In this document: positions 20,150 through 40,412 of the stretch, in pieces | How the letters are laid out: each line of letters starts with the position of its first letter | Numbering within the stretch: position 1 is the stretch's first letter | Assembly: GCA_903926385.1 (NCBI GenBank) | Contig: CAIYIS010000016.1 | Span: 1-40,412 of the forward strand | From: an uncultured Bacteroidota bacterium | Lineage (GTDB): Bacteria; Bacteroidota; Bacteroidia; 2-12-FULL-35-15 | DNA length: 40,412 nucleotides | Direction of reading: 5' to 3' | The notes under the pieces: generated by a model | What the model was told of the DNA's origin: nothing | The model's database searches: none | What the model saw: only the letters and a program-made list of their open reading frames with translations | Made by a program: the position numbers and the translations under genes

Positions 20150-20290
20150 TAGCCTTTAATTTTATTAGTTTTTAATTGAATTGCCCTGTTAATTAATTAA
20201 GTATGTCAATAAAAACAGAGTTTATTTATTGCATACGGTATGTTTTAAGTGTCGTTTTTATTAAAAGGTGGTCGTTTTACATTAATTAAG

Positions 20291-20543
20291 CTTTACGATT
20301 CAATAATTAAACTTAATGATTGAATAATTAAGTTTTACGATTCAACCATTAAACTTTACGATTGAATAATTAACCTTAGTGATTGAATCTTTAACCTTAA
20401 TTAATGTATCATCACGACAAAATGATTGAATTATTAACCTTAGTGATTGAATCATTTTCCTTAATGATTGAATCATTAAACCTACTGATTGAACAATTAA
20501 CCTTAGCGATTGAATCATTTTCCTTAATGATTCAATCATAAAG
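20291..20543. repeat. Tandem array of twelve 21-bp units with palindromic core
   Basis: Units start at 20291, 20312, 20333, 20354, 20375, 20396, 20418, 20439, 20460, 20481, 20502 and 20523; all are 21 bp except the sixth (22 bp, the most diverged). The general form is CTTA, two variable bases, then GATTGAATCATTAA and a last base. The core TGATTGAATCA is an 11-bp palindrome. There are no spacers, so it is not a CRISPR. Period 21 equals two helical turns, so all units face one side of the DNA, as in operator or iteron arrays. Confidence 0.9.
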
Positions 20544-20823: not shown

Positions 20824-21387
20824 TTACTTTTGGCAAAACCAAGCCAGAAAGCCTGCTTTGTTACGTTCCGAAATTTCGAGGGTGTGATTATAGCTCATAA
20901 TGGCTATTGCTGTGCGCACGCTTTCTATTACTTTAATTATATGTTTTCGATTAACGATATGACTATGGTGAGCGCGATAAAAATGGCGAGCAGGAAGCAT
21001 TTTCATCAAACAGTTGAGTCGCATTCGCGACACATATTCTTTATTATTGTAGGTATAGCAAATGGTATAGTTTCTAAAAGCTCCAATATATATAATATCA
21101 TCTTCCGGCACTTTTATCTCTTTGTTTCCTTCCCAAAAACTAATATAGCAAGGGTCTTCTTTCTGTTCGGCAGGGGAAGGCTGAGGTTCTTCTTCATTAT
21201 TAAATATGCTCTTGCTTTGATCAAAGTTGGTTAGCATGTCTATTAGTTTCGCTCCGTTTTCCATACGGGTAAGCACATACACCTCGTTGTTTACTATCAA
21301 TACCGAAGAGTTTGGATTAAGGCAAATTTCTCTATACTCTGTATTCAAAAACAGATTTACATCCACTTTATTGCCTTTTTGTTCCAT
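20824..21387 (-). CDS. Stand-alone LytTR-type DNA-binding regulator
   Basis: 187 aa. Residues ~84-183 form a LytTR domain: YISFWEGNKEIKVPEDDIIYIGAFRNYTICYT in parts, then the hallmark R138-AHHSHIVN and a terminal strand. The first ~60 residues (VNLFLNTEYREICLNPNSSVLIVNNEVYVL) are not a phosphoacceptor receiver domain; they are followed by an acidic linker rich in Glu and Pro (64-79). LytTR domains bind pairs of ~9-bp direct repeats spaced two helical turns apart. Its own upstream region carries three such repeats (21470-21520), so autoregulation is likely. Divergently transcribed from the 7TM-SpoIIE phosphatase gene. Signal input is unknown. Confidence 0.85.
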   Translation of the reverse strand: MEQKGNKVDVNLFLNTEYREICLNPNSSVLIVNNEVYVLTRMENGAKLIDMLTNFDQSKSIFNNEEEPQPSPAEQKEDPCYISFWEGNKEIKVPEDDIIYIGAFRNYTICYTYNNKEYVSRMRLNCLMKMLPARHFYRAHHSHIVNRKHIIKVIESVRTAIAIMSYNHTLEISERNKAGFLAWFCQK

Positions 21388-21441
21388 CTCGGTTTTTATT
21401 TAAAAAGATATTTAACCAAATGCTGCAACAAATTTCGGAAA

Positions 21442-21459: not shown

Positions 21460-21530
21460 GGTAGTTTTAGAATATGGTAGTTTTGGGCATGTGAATGGTA
21501 CTTTTGGCAGGGTGAATGGCAGGAGGGGCA
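21460..21530 (-). promoter_or_regulatory. Operator-like 21-bp repeat array A, upstream of the LytTR gene
   Basis: On the minus strand the cores GCCATTCAC (21520-21512), ACCATTCAC (21499-21491) and ACCATATTC (21478-21470) lie exactly 21 bp apart, each followed by a C/A-rich arm such as TGCCAAAAG or GCCCAAAAC. The cores resemble the LytTR-family consensus [TA][AC][CA]GTTN[AG][TG], and the 12-bp gap is the expected one. The same repeat recurs at 40157-40227. It lies between divergent promoters. Confidence 0.7.
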
Positions 21531-21644: not shown

Positions 21645-23945
21645 ATGAGCAGACACCTATTTATACTTTTTATTTTTTTACTCACGCCATTTGTGCTCCC
21701 TGCTCAGATAAATGGGGTAAGCATGGAAGACAATGCCAGCTTGCAACACGAAATTGTTTTAACCAAAAACTGGAAATATACCTTAGGCGATTCTCTTAAT
21801 CGAAAAGAAATAAATTATGATGACTCGAAATGGGAAAACGTAAAATACTATGAAGGTTATGGGGGTGTGATAGCTGTTCCCAATAATAAATTTAAAGGGT
21901 GTGCATGGTTTCGGCTCCGACTGAAAACCGATACAGCCATGAATAGTGCCACTTATGTAATTTCTTTTTCGCATGATGGTGCAGCCGAGATATACATTGA
22001 CGGAAAGCTGCTTTGTAATTACGGCAACCCATCGAGCGATAGTTCCAAAGAAAACATTTCGGAAACTGTTACACTAGGCAGCCCAGTGTTTTCGTTTGGA
22101 AAAGGTTCAGAGCATACCATTGCTGTTCGTTATTCCTACTGGAAAATGTATTTGAAATACCACGATGCGAGTTTTATTAATTCTCAGATTTATGGCTTTA
22201 GACTTTCGCTCAAAGAATGGAAACAATATCAGGACGACACCATTAAAAACACTTCTAAAATTTCGGGAATTTATGGATGGTTGTCTGGTTTCTTTTATGC
22301 CTTGTGTGTATTGCATTTATTTTTGTTTCTGTATTTCCGTCAAAACAAATCGAATTTATATTACAGCCTTTACTCATTTGCCATAGCAGGAGTTTTTCTG
22401 CTTAAATTGATTGAACAAAACCACGATTCCAAAAGTTTTGATATTCTTTTAGACCTTTGCTACTTTGTGCTTCAAGTGGCTTTAATTCGTTTTTTGTATT
22501 CGCTTTTTTATTCCCGCCCACTCAAACTTATCTGGCTTATTCCGGTACTTTACGTTATTTATTATGTAATACATTTCACCATCGACCCCATTTTTCCGAT
22601 TAGTTATTTTTTCTTCGCGTTTATTTTCTTCCTCATCGCTGTCGAGAGTATAAGAGTTTTGGTTCAGGCCATGTGGCGAAAAAAAGAAGGAGCCAAAATA
22701 ATTGGAGCAGGTGTGGTGGTGCCTGTGGCCATGCCTTTAATACTTTTTGCAGTAGTTGTGCTCACTAGCGATACTGCATCAAACGGAGTAACACTTACAG
22801 GTTTTACCAAAGATATTGTAGTGGGTTTGCTGTGTTTTGCCACCATGAGTATTTCCATTTCTATGTCGGTTTTTCTGGCTCGACAATTCGGCACCGCCAA
22901 TAAAAAATTGAAAGAACAACTGGTGGAAATAAAAGACCTTTCAGAAAAAACTATAGAACAGGAAAAGGAAAAGAAAAAAATTCTGGAAGCTCAAAACATA
23001 GAACTGGAAGAGAAAGTAAAAGAGCGTACCTCAGAATTGGTGCATCAGAAAGAAGTGGTAGAAATAAAAAACCGCGAAATACTCGACAGTATAGAGTATG
23101 CACTGCGTATACAAACCGCCATACTGCCTCCTCAGCGCATTATCAAACAGTATCTCCAAAACTCATTTATACTTTACAAACCAAAAGATATTGTAGCCGG
23201 AGATTTTTATTGGATGGAAACCGTTCAATTACCTGATGAATCAATTAGCTTATTAGCTAATGAAACAAATAGGCATACAACCTCAACTTCTAATCAGCTA
23301 ATCAGTGCATCAGCTAATCAGTTAATTCTTTTTGCTGCCTGCGATTGCACTGGCCATGGTGTGCCCGGAGCAATGGTTTCGGTGGTTTGTCATAATGCAT
23401 TGAACAGAGCTGTGAGAGAATTTGGTTTAACCAAACCTTCGGAAATACTGGATAAAACTGCAGAAATAGTTATAGAAAACTTTGCTTCGAGCGAAGAAGA
23501 TATTAAAGACGGTATGGATATTTCTTTGTGTAGCGTCAACCTTCAAACATTGGAATTGCAATGGTCAGGAGCTAATAATCCATTATGGATTGTGCGCAAC
23601 ACCTCCTCCCCTTCTGAGAACTTGGGAGGGTCTTATGAACTACTAGAAACCAAAGCCGACAAGCAACCTATCGGAATGAACGATGACCATCATCCGTTCA
23701 CTAACCATACGTTTACATTAAACAGTGGAGACAGTGTATATCTGTTTACCGATGGTTTTGCCGACCAGTTTGGTGGGGAAACAGGAGATAAAAAACTTAC
23801 ACGAAAACATTTTAAAGAATTAATTCTTTCTGTTCAGCACCTCCCTATGCCCCAACAAGGCGAGGCTCTCGAAAAATTTATTGCAGACTACAGAAAAGAA
23901 ATAGAACAGATAGATGATATTCTGGTAATGGGAGTAAAAATTTAA
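21645..23945 (+). CDS. Membrane sensor with 7TM region, coiled coil and SpoIIE/PP2C phosphatase domain
   Basis: 766 aa. Signal peptide (ends VLPAQ), a periplasmic jelly-roll-like domain (about 35-195; WFRLRLKTD...EIYIDGKLL), about seven membrane helices (about 205-425), a coiled coil (about 430-490; EEKVKERTSELVHQKE) and a SpoIIE/PP2C domain (about 495-766). Metal-binding Asp residues are present: D520 in VAGDFYW, D567 in DCTGHGVPGA, D703 in TDGFAD and D757/D758 near the end. Such proteins dephosphorylate Ser/Thr on partner proteins in response to periplasmic signals. Two in-frame insertions break the domain: residues ~527-560, and ~652-664 with a palindromic DNA sequence. Divergent from the LytTR gene. 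Confidence 0.85.
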   Translation: MSRHLFILFIFLLTPFVLPAQINGVSMEDNASLQHEIVLTKNWKYTLGDSLNRKEINYDDSKWENVKYYEGYGGVIAVPNNKFKGCAWFRLRLKTDTAMNSATYVISFSHDGAAEIYIDGKLLCNYGNPSSDSSKENISETVTLGSPVFSFGKGSEHTIAVRYSYWKMYLKYHDASFINSQIYGFRLSLKEWKQYQDDTIKNTSKISGIYGWLSGFFYALCVLHLFLFLYFRQNKSNLYYSLYSFAIAGVFLLKLIEQNHDSKSFDILLDLCYFVLQVALIRFLYSLFYSRPLKLIWLIPVLYVIYYVIHFTIDPIFPISYFFFAFIFFLIAVESIRVLVQAMWRKKEGAKIIGAGVVVPVAMPLILFAVVVLTSDTASNGVTLTGFTKDIVVGLLCFATMSISISMSVFLARQFGTANKKLKEQLVEIKDLSEKTIEQEKEKKKILEAQNIELEEKVKERTSELVHQKEVVEIKNREILDSIEYALRIQTAILPPQRIIKQYLQNSFILYKPKDIVAGDFYWMETVQLPDESISLLANETNRHTTSTSNQLISASANQLILFAACDCTGHGVPGAMVSVVCHNALNRAVREFGLTKPSEILDKTAEIVIENFASSEEDIKDGMDISLCSVNLQTLELQWSGANNPLWIVRNTSSPSENLGGSYELLETKADKQPIGMNDDHHPFTNHTFTLNSGDSVYLFTDGFADQFGGETGDKKLTRKHFKELILSVQHLPMPQQGEALEKFIADYRKEIEQIDDILVMGVKI
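23223..23324 (+). repeat. In-frame low-complexity insertion built on CAGCTAATCAG-type repeats
   Basis: The stretch contains ATTAGC/GCTAAT inverted at 23244-23261 and two copies of CAGCTAATCAG near 23295-23322. It encodes ~34 Ser/Asn/Thr-rich residues between the conserved blocks DFYWME and LILFAACDCTGHG, which are adjacent or nearly so in relatives. Confidence 0.55.
23601..23630 (+). repeat. Palindromic element inside the phosphatase coding sequence
   Basis: Outer arms CCTCCC (23605-23610) and GGGAGG (23624-23629) enclose the inner palindrome TTCTGAGAA. It encodes about 13 extra residues between NPLWIVR and ELLETKADKQPIG. Similar CCTCCCC...GGGAGG elements occur between genes in Bacteroidota, from memory. 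Confidence 0.55.
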
Positions 23946-24428: not shown

Positions 24429-27400
24429 TTAACGCATGAGATACATTTTACCCCAGCCCTTTTTAAAATATTGGTCGGCATCTGTTTCGCGCTTGTCCAT
24501 ATCTTCTCCGTTGAGCTTAGTAATTACTCGATATAGGTACACTCCGTTTGCCAATCGGTCGCCATACTGGTCTCTCCCATCCCAGGCAGACTCAGTAATG
24601 TTTCTCCCTATATGTATCATACCTAAATCTTCTTCAAAAATTTCTTTCACCACTTTTCCGGAAATAGTCATAATCTGAATTTTAAAATTCGAGGGTAATT
24701 CCGAACCGGTAAGCGTAAACACAAATCGGGTGGAAGTAGTAAACGGATTCGGATAATTCATTACCTCAGTTATAGAGGCTTTATTTATTACTTCAAAATT
24801 TATTTTGTAATCCACCGCTCCCGATAAATTATTAGAAACGTCTTTGGCCTGCACCAATAACTGATAGGTGCCGTCCTGAGTAAACACAGGAGTAAAATTA
24901 ATTCTGCAACTATTGTTAGGCAAAACAGCAGGAACGAATGTCATATTCTGTCCGAACCAAACACGTCTGATTGTGCTGGATGAAGGTGTTTGCAGAAAAA
25001 CTTTAAAATCGTTGGTATCGTTCAATGCCAGAAACTGATTTTCGTCTTTCAACTTCATCATTATATTCGGTTTGGCCGAAACAATATCTGCATTCAAAAT
25101 ATGCACTCCATCAAAAGTCACATCCAGTAATGGATTCACCCTGTCGCCCGACACCTGAAACGGAATACGAACAATATTATTAAAATGTGTTTGCTCTAGT
25201 TGGGAGTGTGTTCTATGTAAAGGATTCACCTCCACCCAAAGTGCATTATTGCCTTTAAATCTTATATTATTATCATAGGTGTTAATTTTTACTGTATCCA
25301 TAATAACCTGATTAGGCACAAATGGCTGTTTCTTTAATTTATCTGGAAAGTGATGCACATTACCATTTGCATCCACCACATATTGGGTAATAAGCAAACT
25401 ATCGTAAAAAGGAATGCTATTCGAAAATGCAACACTGCCTATGTTCTGAATTGGTAACTGAACAATAAAATTATCTCCTTCCTGCACCGTCTGACTTGAA
25501 ATAACATGTATACCGCCAATAGCAGGATTAATGGCACATTCCGGAACAGGATCGAATGTTACATGCCAGCGCTTGAGCTGTGGTGCGGTATGCATCGAAT
25601 CGTCCTTCATATTTGCCACCAGTCGAATATATGGATAGGTACTTGCATTGGGTATGTAATTCCCACCTAAATCCAAAACATCCAGCGAATCTTTAGGAAA
25701 CGAACCCAACACATCTTCTTGTCCGTTGGCTTTTATTCCTATTACTGTTACACCTATACTATCTTTGGTGGTAGCTCCGTCAAGCGTTTTCCATCTCCAG
25801 TGCAGCGTATGCCAGGCTGTTGCTGGCCCAATAACAGGAGAGGAAATATATCCCTTGGTCCAGTTGGTAATAATGGTATTATACGAATGAATAATTGCAT
25901 TTGCCGAATCACCTATTATTTCTCTGGCGCTATCTTGTGCCAAACCTTTTTGTCCAAACAAAATATAAGGTCGGTTATCATGGAGAGTGTCTATTTTGCC
26001 TGCTCCTAATGTGTGAAAGGCATTGATAATATTTTGTGAATATTGCGGAGAAGTTTTTCCCGAAGTAAACGCTAAAACGTAGTCTCCGGCTTGTATTCCA
26101 TCTGCTAAATTGCTAGGGTTGTTAATAAAATTTGAAATGAGAGAATCTGAATAATTGTAAAAATCATAGGCGTTCTCACGGGTTCCGGCTATATATCCCG
26201 AAACATTTCCCCAATGCCCGCCCCCGTTTGGAGGGCCATCTGTACTCTGTTTTGGATTTCCATTGATAGGATCGAAAACTGCAAATGTAAGTCCCGAATT
26301 CTCTGTCCATGGTTCGAAATATTCCTGATAGCCATTTAGCTTGTATTCTCCAAAAGTAGGCACACCTGTGGTGCATTCAATGTTTTTTAAATCATTGTAA
26401 AATTCAAACTTTCGTTGCGGACGGTTAACATGTACATATTGAAAACCATCGTTTTTATATTGAAAAAAATGGGCTTGTTCCCAACCTTTTTTTCCGTTTA
26501 CGTGCTGAAATGAACTTTCATGCCACTTAAATCCGCTGGTTGGCGAAATAGAATCAGGGCTCACTCTCCAGAAATAAACAGTACTATCAGTGGATGTTAT
26601 GAACGATTGAGGTCTCCATTTCACAACTCCTCCTACAGATGTTACTGAAACAGTCTGCCTGAACGGACTATTGTATGTATCTGTAGTATCCATCTGAAAT
26701 ATGTAATGTCGGGAAGCGGCCATTGGATCAACAGTTGAGGCTTTTAAGGTAACTGTATCGGTAGGAACTATTGCGAAATTGTAGGGGTAAACCGGAATAA
26801 TATCTCCCCCATTAATAATATAATCTACCTCTCCTGTGGTATTATTATTTTCATACAATTCGTCCACCGTATTGTTTCTGTCGAGTGTAACATAAAATTT
26901 ATTTAAACCAACTCCACTCACTCCATTATTATCTATCTTCATTTTAAACTTAACAGTATCTCTGAAGTAAGGTTCTTTATTAATGATCATTTTTGTTACA
27001 GAAGAACCGTCAGGAAGAGTACGTATGAGTTCTGTAATAGTACTGTCGTTAGTTGCCTTTCCTATATTTGTTCTCACCACAGAGATTACAATTGTATCGG
27101 GAATGGCATCCATATTAAAAGAAATATCACTTCCTGTAATTTTATAATCTGGTTTTGCACCCGGATTAATTTTCAAAGCAGGGTCACCATGATAGGTCAT
27201 TTCCATACACGTCATGGTATCAAGAGGCATAACTCCCGGCATCATCTCCACATTAGTAATAGCTTGCTTAATCTGTGAACCTATTGAATGTCCATAATTC
27301 ATCTTGGCTATTTGCTTATACAACTCTCCTGAATATCTGTTCAAATCAACAGAAACGCCCAAAGCCACAGAGCCAAGATACCCTATCACTCCTTTTTGAG

Positions 27401-29525
27401 CAGTTAGAACAAAGTTTTCGCTCGTACTTCCATCAGCATGAATATCTCCTGCATAACATGAGTTGGCTAGAAGAAAAGGGTAGTGACCGGGTCGAGGATT
27501 GTAGGTGTTAATGTCATCTAGACTTTGATCAAAGCTTGTTCCCGAAGCGTGTCCAAAGAAAGTCATTATAGAAACTCCGTAGTTTATTAAATCACGTAAC
27601 GTATCTGAAGTATTAATTTGAATAGGCGCTGAACTGGTTTTGAAAAAAGGCCTAACATTCCCTCCATACCAAGTATTGCGAATAGTGGTAGCATAACTGT
27701 TCAAACAACCTTGAAACATATTTTGTTCGGCAGCATTCGAGCCTCCTCCAAAATGCAATACCTGTTTTTTCCAATCTCCCGTATCATTAACTGGCGATTC
27801 GAACAATTGCACTTTATTTAAATAATCAAACACCTGTTGAGAATTTCGAGCGGAAAGCCTTCCAGTTGGAATAGAAGGTGCCAAGTTTCCTGGAGTTAGA
27901 CCTGCAGTAAATAAATTATCGCTGGATGGATTACCAAACGATGGCACTAAACAACCAGAATAATACCATATGTTTTGACGAGTTAAAGCAACGTGATAGG
28001 ACTTACCGATAAGAAAAAGATTGTTTGGAGGATGCGAAGGATTTGCATTAATAATTGCATTGCAGAAACCACGAATGGATAACGGGCTCTTTACAATTCC
28101 GTATGCAAACTGATCATACAATTCGTCAATATCAGCAACTACAACATTTTGTGAGCCTCCACTCATAGAACTTCGGTAACCTTTGTACCCGTTCATCGGT
28201 GTTACTGCCGACATAAGTGATTTGTGGGTCACAATCAAGTAGGCCGAATCCACCGGACCAGCTGCAAAATTTGTAAACTGGGCATTTGGAGTTACCGGTA
28301 TTAATGCTGGAACATTAATAATATTTCCGTCAGAGGTAATAAAACACTTTTTGTCGTTTCCGCCTAAACCGTTTGGGATAAGAGCATCATAATTGCTACC
28401 GTTCTGCACTACAGTAATTCGTTTGGCGTTCGATAAATCATATAATCTGACTGTACCTGATGCACTGAAATTACTAAAATGGAAATACGATTTTAATTGT
28501 GAAGAACTATTGGGAACATACATTAAAAAAGAATTATTTCCCTCCAAATCTGAGGTGTGTGGATATTTAACATTAATGAACGATATTGCCGTTCGATTGT
28601 CGCTTATAAAACCACTAATACCGGTAGTTAAACTCTGAAACTGAAAATCTGTGGTGACACTTCCTAATAGCAAAGGTGAAAGATTATAGAGATATTGTCT
28701 CAAATCATATCCTTTAAAATAGTCATCAATCATCGCATTGTATCCTCCCCCTGTACCGTGATATTTTACAGTAATATGATGGTCGGGATTTCCTTGAATT
28801 ATTGATGAGGCATTCTGAGAAGCACCTGCAACAACAATTCTCACTGCTGCATTCGGCCCAGATGAATAAACGTTTTTTGTATTCAAAGACTTCGTAACCG
28901 TAGCTCCTAGTAAAAGAGGGTCGCCATTACCATCCATATCAAACCACCCTTCGGAACGTTTGTACCTTACATCTGTTCCTCCGGCAAAATCCGTTTCTCC
29001 GTCATAATATCCTACATGATATTCCTGAACTTCATCTTTTATAAAATAATTTGATGCGGGAATGTTGAAATTAACATCTGTTTCTGGCAACATTCTGTTG
29101 TTTGAAGTGAGATTATTCCAGGTAAGGAAATAAACTGCAGTGTCGTTAATTAAACTGTAATAAGGATTCGGAACAAAAGGGGTGTTTACATATAATAAAG
29201 AGTCAAGTGCTCCATCATTTTTCTGAGCATAAAACTCAATAAAGTCTCCTGTATTGAAAACTCCGTCACTTTCGCCCTCAACATATATGTATTGCTGAGC
29301 ACCTTTATTAAATATCTGAAAATTCTGAGGATTTATTCCCCCTGCTCCTACCGGAATTCCTGCATTGGCAAGGGTAGTTGAGTCAATACGGTAAACACCG
29401 TTTTGCGCAACTTTAACTTTGTAATAGTTTTGGGAATAATTAATCCATCCGTTAGCAAAAGTTTGGGCCTTTGAACTAATAAATGAAAATAGAATAAGAC
29501 TAACTACAAGTATTTTTTTAATCAT
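24429..29525 (-). CDS. porU2: PorU2-type giant C25 (gingipain-family) cysteine peptidase
   Basis: 1698 aa. Signal peptide 1-20 (ends SSKAQ). An N-terminal beta domain (about 25-400) precedes a peptidase C25 domain (about 427-785) with catalytic His659 in TFFGHASG and Cys690 in LLANSCYAGD, the spacing of gingipains and sortase PorU. A CARDB-like part (about 790-890, IVISVVRTNIGKATNDST), long beta-sandwich regions and a C-terminal FlgD-like/sorting-like domain (about 1582-1690; MNYPNPFTTSTRF...NGVYLYRV) follow. PorU proper is about 1100-1200 aa; the greater length and the PorV-like gene directly upstream match the group called PorU2, a putative T9SS sortase. It would act at the cell surface, perhaps removing sorting domains from a cargo subset; that role is inferred. 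Second gene of a two-gene operon. Confidence 0.82.
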   Translation of the reverse strand: MIKKILVVSLILFSFISSKAQTFANGWINYSQNYYKVKVAQNGVYRIDSTTLANAGIPVGAGGINPQNFQIFNKGAQQYIYVEGESDGVFNTGDFIEFYAQKNDGALDSLLYVNTPFVPNPYYSLINDTAVYFLTWNNLTSNNRMLPETDVNFNIPASNYFIKDEVQEYHVGYYDGETDFAGGTDVRYKRSEGWFDMDGNGDPLLLGATVTKSLNTKNVYSSGPNAAVRIVVAGASQNASSIIQGNPDHHITVKYHGTGGGYNAMIDDYFKGYDLRQYLYNLSPLLLGSVTTDFQFQSLTTGISGFISDNRTAISFINVKYPHTSDLEGNNSFLMYVPNSSSQLKSYFHFSNFSASGTVRLYDLSNAKRITVVQNGSNYDALIPNGLGGNDKKCFITSDGNIINVPALIPVTPNAQFTNFAAGPVDSAYLIVTHKSLMSAVTPMNGYKGYRSSMSGGSQNVVVADIDELYDQFAYGIVKSPLSIRGFCNAIINANPSHPPNNLFLIGKSYHVALTRQNIWYYSGCLVPSFGNPSSDNLFTAGLTPGNLAPSIPTGRLSARNSQQVFDYLNKVQLFESPVNDTGDWKKQVLHFGGGSNAAEQNMFQGCLNSYATTIRNTWYGGNVRPFFKTSSAPIQINTSDTLRDLINYGVSIMTFFGHASGTSFDQSLDDINTYNPRPGHYPFLLANSCYAGDIHADGSTSENFVLTAQKGVIGYLGSVALGVSVDLNRYSGELYKQIAKMNYGHSIGSQIKQAITNVEMMPGVMPLDTMTCMEMTYHGDPALKINPGAKPDYKITGSDISFNMDAIPDTIVISVVRTNIGKATNDSTITELIRTLPDGSSVTKMIINKEPYFRDTVKFKMKIDNNGVSGVGLNKFYVTLDRNNTVDELYENNNTTGEVDYIINGGDIIPVYPYNFAIVPTDTVTLKASTVDPMAASRHYIFQMDTTDTYNSPFRQTVSVTSVGGVVKWRPQSFITSTDSTVYFWRVSPDSISPTSGFKWHESSFQHVNGKKGWEQAHFFQYKNDGFQYVHVNRPQRKFEFYNDLKNIECTTGVPTFGEYKLNGYQEYFEPWTENSGLTFAVFDPINGNPKQSTDGPPNGGGHWGNVSGYIAGTRENAYDFYNYSDSLISNFINNPSNLADGIQAGDYVLAFTSGKTSPQYSQNIINAFHTLGAGKIDTLHDNRPYILFGQKGLAQDSAREIIGDSANAIIHSYNTIITNWTKGYISSPVIGPATAWHTLHWRWKTLDGATTKDSIGVTVIGIKANGQEDVLGSFPKDSLDVLDLGGNYIPNASTYPYIRLVANMKDDSMHTAPQLKRWHVTFDPVPECAINPAIGGIHVISSQTVQEGDNFIVQLPIQNIGSVAFSNSIPFYDSLLITQYVVDANGNVHHFPDKLKKQPFVPNQVIMDTVKINTYDNNIRFKGNNALWVEVNPLHRTHSQLEQTHFNNIVRIPFQVSGDRVNPLLDVTFDGVHILNADIVSAKPNIMMKLKDENQFLALNDTNDFKVFLQTPSSSTIRRVWFGQNMTFVPAVLPNNSCRINFTPVFTQDGTYQLLVQAKDVSNNLSGAVDYKINFEVINKASITEVMNYPNPFTTSTRFVFTLTGSELPSNFKIQIMTISGKVVKEIFEEDLGMIHIGRNITESAWDGRDQYGDRLANGVYLYRVITKLNGEDMDKRETDADQYFKKGWGKMYLMR

Positions 29526-32279: not shown

Positions 32280-33660
32280 AATTCTACTCTCATTCACCTT
32301 TCTTTATTTTATTCTTATTACCGCATTAAGTATTAACATTCCTTTCTTTTGGGATGGAACCTTTTTCTCTGCTTCCGCTTTACATTTTTTCGAAAACGGA
32401 TTTCAATATGGTATTGCTCCTAAAGAACTCGACACTGGAGGATTCCCTATGTATTCCCTTTATCTGGCTATGGCATGGAAAGTGTTTAGTAAATCATTAG
32501 CAGTTTCTCACCTTGCCCTTTTGCCAGTATTGCTCGGTATAGCTTACGAATACCTAAAACTTGCCAATCGCTTTTTGAAAAAGCACGCACTAATATTTGC
32601 GGTACTTCTTTTATTTTTCGAACCAACACTCATCACCCAAACTATATTAATTGGTTATGATTTATTATTAGTTTATTTTTTCCTTCTTTCGCTAAATGCC
32701 CTGCTGGCGGGAAAAAGAAGACTATACATTCTCGCTTTTGCACTTCTTTGCCTGAGTAATGTAAGGGGACCGATGTTAGGATTATCATTACTCTTAATTG
32801 ATTTAACTTTGGTTTCGCCTACTATTAAAACAAAATTTCAGAAGTCAAAAACCTACTTTATCCCTTTTATTATTCTTTCCTTATGGACGGTTTTTCATTA
32901 TTACAAAACCGGATGGTGGTTCATTTCTCCTGAACGAGAACACACACATGAAGCTTTATTACCGGCAAGTATGATGTTGCGCCAACTCTTATTTATTTTT
33001 TGGAAAATTGCAGATTTCGGAAGAGTGGCATTGTGGTTATTTCTCTTTGTTGCCGGCTACTTTTTATTTCAAAAGAAAAACTCTTCATTATTTAAAACAC
33101 TTTTGAAAATTATTTTCATCCCGTTGATAACACTCTCCGTATTTATGATTCCGATAGCGAATCCCATTGGTCAAAAATATTTTATTGTCATCTTTCTGGT
33201 TTTGAATATCGGTGTATGCTTTTTGATTCAGGAAATAAAAACACGAAAAGGGCAATTAACAATAATCTCCTGTTTTTGCATAGCACTCTTATCAGGAAAT
33301 TTTTGGCTGTATCCCGAGCGTTTCGGAAACGGCTGGGACTCTTCTCTAAAAATAATTCCTTATTTTCATCTTCAAAAAGAAATGGATGTATTTATTAAAA
33401 ACAACAATATCTCCCCTGCTGATATTGGCACACAATTCCCTCTGATTGCAGATAAGCGGGTGGCTTACCTGAGCGACACCTCGTATTGTTATAATAATGT
33501 ATGGAGTGGCCCTGTAGGCAAGTTCAAGTATTTTTTATATACCAATATTATCAATACGGATATACCGCAACAGGTTGATGAGACCAAACAAAAATGGGAA
33601 TTAATAAAAGGAATTCATTCTGGGCAAGTGTATATTAACTTGTATAAAAGACCTGATTAA
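32269..33660 (+). CDS. Polytopic GT-C-like glycosyltransferase
   Basis: 463 aa with about ten membrane helices. The first periplasmic loop starts FFWDGTFFSASALHFFENG with an acidic residue (D29) where GT-C enzymes (ArnT/PMT/GT39 type) hold the catalytic Asp, followed by LDTGGFPMYSLYLA. The C-terminal ~110 residues are soluble. GT-C enzymes take sugars from polyprenyl phosphate, so pairing with the GT2 gene directly upstream is logical. Acceptor unknown. The start overlaps the GT2 stop by 11 nt, and its stop overlaps the convergent gene's stop by 4 nt. Confidence 0.75.
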   Translation: MQNRILLSFTFLYFILITALSINIPFFWDGTFFSASALHFFENGFQYGIAPKELDTGGFPMYSLYLAMAWKVFSKSLAVSHLALLPVLLGIAYEYLKLANRFLKKHALIFAVLLLFFEPTLITQTILIGYDLLLVYFFLLSLNALLAGKRRLYILAFALLCLSNVRGPMLGLSLLLIDLTLVSPTIKTKFQKSKTYFIPFIILSLWTVFHYYKTGWWFISPEREHTHEALLPASMMLRQLLFIFWKIADFGRVALWLFLFVAGYFLFQKKNSSLFKTLLKIIFIPLITLSVFMIPIANPIGQKYFIVIFLVLNIGVCFLIQEIKTRKGQLTIISCFCIALLSGNFWLYPERFGNGWDSSLKIIPYFHLQKEMDVFIKNNNISPADIGTQFPLIADKRVAYLSDTSYCYNNVWSGPVGKFKYFLYTNIINTDIPQQVDETKQKWELIKGIHSGQVYINLYKRPD

Positions 33661-40154: not shown

Positions 40155-40241
40155 TTACCGTTCACAGGCTAAAACTACCATTCACAATGCCAAAAGTACC
40201 ATTCACAATGCCAAAAGTGCCGTTCGCCATATTGGCAGAAA
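40155..40241 (+). promoter_or_regulatory. Operator-like 21-bp repeat array B
   Basis: Cores ACCGTTCAC (40157), ACCATTCAC (40177), ACCATTCAC (40198) and GCCGTTCGC (40219) are spaced 20, 21 and 21 bp; the two middle units are identical over TACCATTCACAATGCCAAAA. The first core matches 8 of 9 positions of the LytTR consensus [TA][AC][CA]GTTN[AG][TG]. Same repeat as array A at 21460-21530 (on the opposite strand there). It ends ~20 nt before a perfect -7 box. Confidence 0.75.
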
Positions 40242-40260
40242 AAATTATTTTTTTATGCTA

Positions 40261-40268
40261 TATTTTTG
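40261..40268 (+). promoter_or_regulatory. -7 box downstream of array B
   Basis: TATTTTTG, perfect TAnnTTTG, reading toward the right edge. The last array core is 33 nt upstream, so a bound regulator would contact RNA polymerase near -40. Confidence 0.55.
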
Positions 40269-40412
40269 TACCCACAAATAGTTCATCACGGAGTGTTGCC
40301 GAAAATCCAAGTAAAGAGTAGGCCATAAACAAGGAGCGTGCAAAGGCTGAGGCACGTTAATCATAGAAAAGCAAAAACTGAAATTACATAGTAATAAATA
40401 GTATTCATTAAA

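Follow-up and report, generated by a model that had tools for sequence, protein, structure and literature searches.

The four LytTR-like boxes near the right end of the window, that is, the whole stretch of 40,412 nucleotides analyzed here (the complete contig C16 of genome G000), very probably form a switch worked by a conserved signalling protein of the LytTR type. Judged from sequence, they probably (roughly 0.6) belong to an activator-dependent four-box promoter within a genus-wide LytTR regulon, bound by a response regulator encoded on contig C25. The kind of box, the 12-bp gaps and the position are already known, since they match the sites of HdrR, BrsR and YpdB (PMC6193735, PMC4847170), whereas this member, along with its targets, appears to be new. 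Nor did the literature searched describe the regulon, arrays of three to four boxes, their 42-bp geometry or the palindrome treated below.

The array and its promoter

Direct reading places four 9-bp boxes on the plus strand, at 40157-40165 (ACCGTTCAC), 40177-40185 and 40198-40206 (both ACCATTCAC) and 40219-40227 (GCCGTTCGC, the promoter-proximal box); the first was also found by pattern and matrix scans, the second and third by the pattern scan. Their cores are spaced by 20, 21 and 21 bp, as an earlier note on this DNA had stated, and TRF reports a 21-bp tandem at 40156-40225 (86% matches). The gaps of 11, 12 and 12 bp fall within the range for LytTR direct repeats (repeats of 9-11 bp, gaps of 11-13 bp). 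The fit of eight in nine positions to the classical LytTR consensus given in the earlier note holds for box 1, whereas boxes 2-4 each agree at seven of nine.

By the 19-bp rule for the canonical Bacteroidota -33 spacing, some 10 bp separate the end of the proximal box from the expected -33 element, so that the repeats lie just upstream of the -35 region; no TTTG is found at the canonical -33 distance upstream of the -7 box. This box, TATTTTTG at 40261-40268 (+), is, as previously claimed, a perfect TAnnTTTG, the consensus of the Bacteroidota -7 box (PMC9723704), and begins 42 bp past the start of the last core at 40219. Overlapping the proximal box is the element TTCGCCATATTGGCAG at 40223-40238 (+), with the palindrome GCCATATTGGC at 40226-40236, which defines what we call class B promoters. 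From 40269 to the contig end at 40412 (+) runs an untranslated leader without an ORF of note, as had been reported, which can be aligned with leaders in two related genomes, G026 and G014. It contains a small hairpin (40334-40356) with the stem CGTGC/GCACG, which in G026 (L058, about 10772-10745, minus strand) reads CGCGC/GCGCG; pairing is kept despite the stem change, a weak observation from two sequences. The leader motif GCTGAAAATCC...AAAGAGTAGGC is also present in G030 (L016 1500-1535), there without boxes.

The array stands out from chance. With up to 3 mismatches allowed, a 23-bp search pattern, CCRTTCACNNNSCCAAAAGTACC, matched the 4.27-Mb genome 12 times, at six places and always with 0-1 mismatch; its reversed control had 2 matches. 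All 12 were in tandem and adjoined gene starts; the random scatter away from promoters that would have counted against a regulatory role was not seen. With a nine-base matrix built only from the arrays of other genomes, taken from the site immediately 3' of a conserved response regulator of the LytTR type, position 40157 was the top-scoring one in the window on either strand (38.1; 200 shuffles: mean 13.7, sd 3.1, maximum 31.2).

A second array lies on the minus strand of the window at 21470-21520, before a gene for a short LytTR protein (20824-21387, minus strand; 187 aa, Pfam LytTR 9.8e-16) that has no receiver domain. Its boxes are GCCATTCAC (21512-21520), ACCATTCAC (21491-21499) and ACCATATTC (21470-21478), and a -7-like box, GAAATTTG, follows 42 bp after the proximal one at 21429-21436 (minus strand). 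The matrix ranks this array, at 21512, best on its strand with 24.9, a level that the most extreme shuffles reach, and it therefore does not stand on the matrix score alone. A search of the short protein against the PDB with phmmer gave no significant relative, and the gene was not found in an operon with a membrane inhibitor gene, the arrangement by which LRS operons are recognized. Downstream of it lie an array of 21-bp repeats and an ORF of 220 aa that has no match in Pfam, and divergent from it, with the intergenic region in common, is a gene of the 7TMR-DISM/SpoIIE-phosphatase type (21645-23945, plus strand). Long arrays of 6-17 units, all with a 21-bp period but with unit sequences unrelated from one array to another, read as open 7-aa repeats and occur near regulon genes in several species (window 20285-20539; L058 9688-9920; L179 4738-4967; L180 420-781; L178 6321-6494; L192 6625-6792; L061 7553-7757), often separating a short LytTR or ~230-aa gene from the one that comes next. 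The window further encodes a 1698-aa protein with gingipain-type peptidase C25 and ILEI domains (24429-29525, minus strand).

A genus-wide set of arrays and candidate targets

The six places in this genome lie before the short LytTR gene of the window, before an exbB-exbD-exbD-tonB cluster (contig C45), at two sites on contig C25 and at two contig ends. On C25, the array at 28672 has the LytTR response regulator on one side and a 40-aa ORF plus aspS on the other, and the array at 32931 precedes an ECF sigma operon. The names exbB, exbD, tonB and aspS come from reading the translations rather than from a family search; those of the kinase, regulator, ECF sigma, LytTR and T9SS proteins are Pfam-based.

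As the boxes are spelled somewhat differently from species to species, the G000-spelled pattern yielded only scattered matches with 3 mismatches, and a single one with 2, across the genus, and the sequence-only models R1 and R2 were used in its place. Across 36 genomes, arrays of 2-4 boxes with the same 42-bp geometry lie before a recurring set of genes linked to the cell envelope: exbB-exbD-exbD-tonB, ECF sigma operons, short LytTR genes, T9SS-secreted proteins (in relatives, LRR/DUF7619 and M43 peptidase/PKD proteins) and a small-protein gene directly 3' of the regulator. A distance of 42 bp from the start of the proximal box to the -7 box holds at nearly all sites that were checked. The recurrence of motif and geometry at gene starts supports the link to a promoter made in the earlier note, whose contrast of four sites with the usual two needs correcting: 2-4 boxes are the norm in the genus, and the array is one of a regulon. 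A wider contig scan returned five contigs from four MAGs already in the comparison and two unrelated chance matches, in Parabacteroides and Chitinophagaceae, neither with an array.

Two classes of promoter can be told apart. Class B, to which the window promoter belongs, ends in TTCGCCAwATTGGCAG plus CTATATTTTTGT and occurs in G000 and G004 (twice each), G014, G026 and G034. Class A promoters, which precede the other regulon genes, often carry TTCTArAACTGCCCCTTTTAT or similar after the boxes and are without the class B palindrome. Within one genome, class B and exbB sites spell their boxes alike. A phased array of similar kind (ACCATTTAC...ACCGATTAT) was seen in genomes that lack a short LytTR, before a TonB-dependent receptor-like gene of ~780 aa (L182 in G016, L183 in G010, L184 in G035, L186 in G003, L187 in G025 and, weaker, L185).

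The response regulator (C25:27918-28664; 249 aa, Response_reg and LytTR in Pfam) is matched at roughly 59% identity or better in 30 of the 36 genomes, and its LytTR domain keeps the contact motif FhRhHRS. In NCBIfam it is closest to the BtsR model (8e-37, below cut-off). The kinase on C25 has 998 aa with the Pfam domains Reg_prop, Y_Y_Y, His_kinase and HATPase_c. A matrix made from sites of G000 and near relatives only finds a three-box array 3' of the regulator in 25 of the 29 genomes tested (p<=0.03); most show TAATATTG or a sequence like it at +42. The occurrence of arrays before LytTR genes and 3' of this regulator, together with their likeness to published boxes, supports the proposed identity of the boxes. 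What comes after the array 3' of the regulator is a small, conserved protein (~40-57 aa; MNRK...GIGTVTILLAIATV...) whose C-terminal half is hydrophobic, found in G000 (L063, C25, 6673-7000) and in most genomes of the genus (L194-L223).

The exbB arrays, which were scored without reference to the regulator, track its presence. Each of the 24 genomes that have the regulator reached a two-box score of 7.6 or more, and four of the five that do not stayed below 0.2, a split of 24/24 versus 1/5 for which the cut was chosen afterwards. At p<=0.01, arrays were found in 19 of 24 and 1 of 5 genomes, respectively (Fisher 0.022); as the genomes are related, such counts overstate independence. The exception is G013, which has an exbB array and in which no regulator ortholog was detected. 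Given the post hoc cut and the kinship of the genomes, we take this co-occurrence as support rather than proof.

The assembly break and the gene beyond it

The end of contig C78 repeats the same ~370 bp as that of C16 apart from a few SNPs, the last of which lies about 141 bp before the end; this places the assembly break inside a two-copy repeat, as a short-read assembler gives. There are therefore two copies of the promoter, while the gene that follows is absent from the assembly, so that there would be two such transcripts and not the single one proposed earlier. In G026 (contig C14) and G014 (C27), leaders alignable with that of the window run into proteins of 232 and 229 aa, respectively, which share 40% identity and have no match in Pfam or NCBIfam. 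Next in G026 comes an LRR/T9SS protein; in G014 it is one of 514 aa that looks exported. Other class B promoters, in G004, G014 (C5) and G034, lead into T9SS proteins or off the contig end. On this comparison, the odds are about even that the gene past the edge of the window encodes a ~230-aa protein of no recognized family, beside T9SS cargo. The 220-aa ORF near the short LytTR gene was considered as a homologue of the 232-aa protein and rejected on comparison.

Candidate binders and related systems

We rank the two-component response regulator as the likeliest binder and the short LytTR protein second, based on the fast divergence and loss of contact residues in the latter and on the co-occurrence of arrays with the former; both may act. 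The Reg_prop/Y_Y_Y histidine kinase would signal to the response regulator, which would bind the boxes on one helix face, at the window array probably as two dimers. The proximal box, starting two 21-bp periods before the -7 box, would set the regulator against RNA polymerase, and binding would raise rather than repress transcription of the gene past the contig edge, most likely that of a T9SS-associated protein of ~230 aa. At the window array, binding may be cooperative and regulation strong, as previously suggested.

The genome encodes 23 LytTR proteins, a number that counts against singling out this regulator, and the short LytTR is a possible, if rather unlikely, binder in its place, which would autoregulate via 21470-21520 and control class B promoters, the response regulator having other targets or sharing the boxes. 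Its gene is on the same contig as the window array, and class B is found in exactly those five genomes that have a short LytTR (G004, G014, G026 and G034 besides G000), the only other match at the cut-off being a longer response regulator in G028. Arrays also precede the short LytTR genes themselves, three times in G004, once in G026 and weakly in G014, and the G000 protein has retained the R, H and S residues of that motif (FYRAHHS). However, more than 20 genomes that have no short LytTR carry arrays of the same motif at exbB and 3' of the regulator, the short proteins are fast-evolving and in several of them residues of the contact motif are gone, and the identical box spelling of class B and exbB sites within a genome is more simply explained by one ancestral binder. 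Somewhat speculatively, the two proteins could form a two-layer network, in which the ancestral response regulator runs Ton energisation genus-wide, and the receiver-less LytTRs of one clade, multiplied, fast-evolving and driven by the same boxes, act on or against those boxes to tune the class B promoters of T9SS surface proteins.

We consider it improbable that an unrelated regulator reads the boxes, or that mainly the palindrome GCCATATTGGC matters, with the likeness to LytTR sites being convergent: the 16-bp TTCGCCAwATTGGCAG is better conserved than the boxes in class B, and LytTR sites have no consensus common to all (PMC4847170), yet the arrays adjoin two kinds of LytTR gene and, genus-wide, go together with one of the two, and the palindrome is absent from class A. 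Far less credible still are two other readings: that the array is a repeat, arisen by chance or as a minisatellite, where the assembly breaks, or that it is the leader of an rRNA operon missing from the assembly. The window does end in a two-copy repeat, the assembly has no 16S, and 21-bp minisatellites are common in these genomes; against this, the promoter geometry is constant across species and 200 shuffles fall short of 38.1. We rejected the rRNA leader because homologous promoters and leaders in relatives continue into protein genes; Rfam searches of the window and related loci found nothing for the leader and no rRNA at the relatives' leader loci.

Among known systems, HdrRM and BrsRM of Streptococcus mutans (PMC6193735) come closest in their sites: ACCnCTTAn direct repeats with 12-bp gaps (ACCTCTTAG-12-ACCACTTAA for HdrR, ACCACTTAT-12-ACCGCTTAT for BrsR), mostly ~10 bp before the -35 element and also before the regulator genes. 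A G026 box, ACCGCTTAA, is one position off BrsR ACCGCTTAT, and the window boxes, ACCRTTCAC, are near variants. In contrast, the streptococcal sites have two repeats instead of two to four, the promoter type is different, and their regulators are encoded with a membrane inhibitor protein, whereas no such protein was seen beside the short LytTR. YpdAB and BtsSR of E. coli (PMC4847170, PMC5552118) also pair a kinase with a receiver-LytTR regulator, and YpdB binds direct repeats with a 21-bp period, GGCATTTCAT (PMC4847170). Their sensor domain is LytS, whereas the C25 kinase has Reg_prop/Y_Y_Y (Pfam), which makes the C25 system alike in working but not a BtsSR member; their targets are pyruvate transporters rather than Ton, ECF sigma and T9SS genes. 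AgrA at agr P2/P3 of Staphylococcus aureus (PMC4227749) likewise binds as a LytTR dimer to two direct repeats upstream of a promoter and contacts DNA through the FhRhHRS motif, but its box sequence is another one and its proximal repeats are centred near -60, unlike the arrangement with a Bacteroidota -7 box found here.

LytTR control in Bacteroidota seems little studied. In the papers retrieved, no such regulon was described for the phylum, and literature searches on LytTR with exbB/tonB or T9SS turned up none of relevance. Our results point to an apparently undescribed LytTR regulon in a Bacteroidota genus known here from MAGs, which would link one two-component system to exbB-exbD-exbD-tonB, an ECF sigma factor and T9SS-secreted proteins. 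Its rigid geometry, with boxes ~21 bp apart and the final one placed 42 bp ahead of the -7 box, provides a simple rule by which targets can be found.
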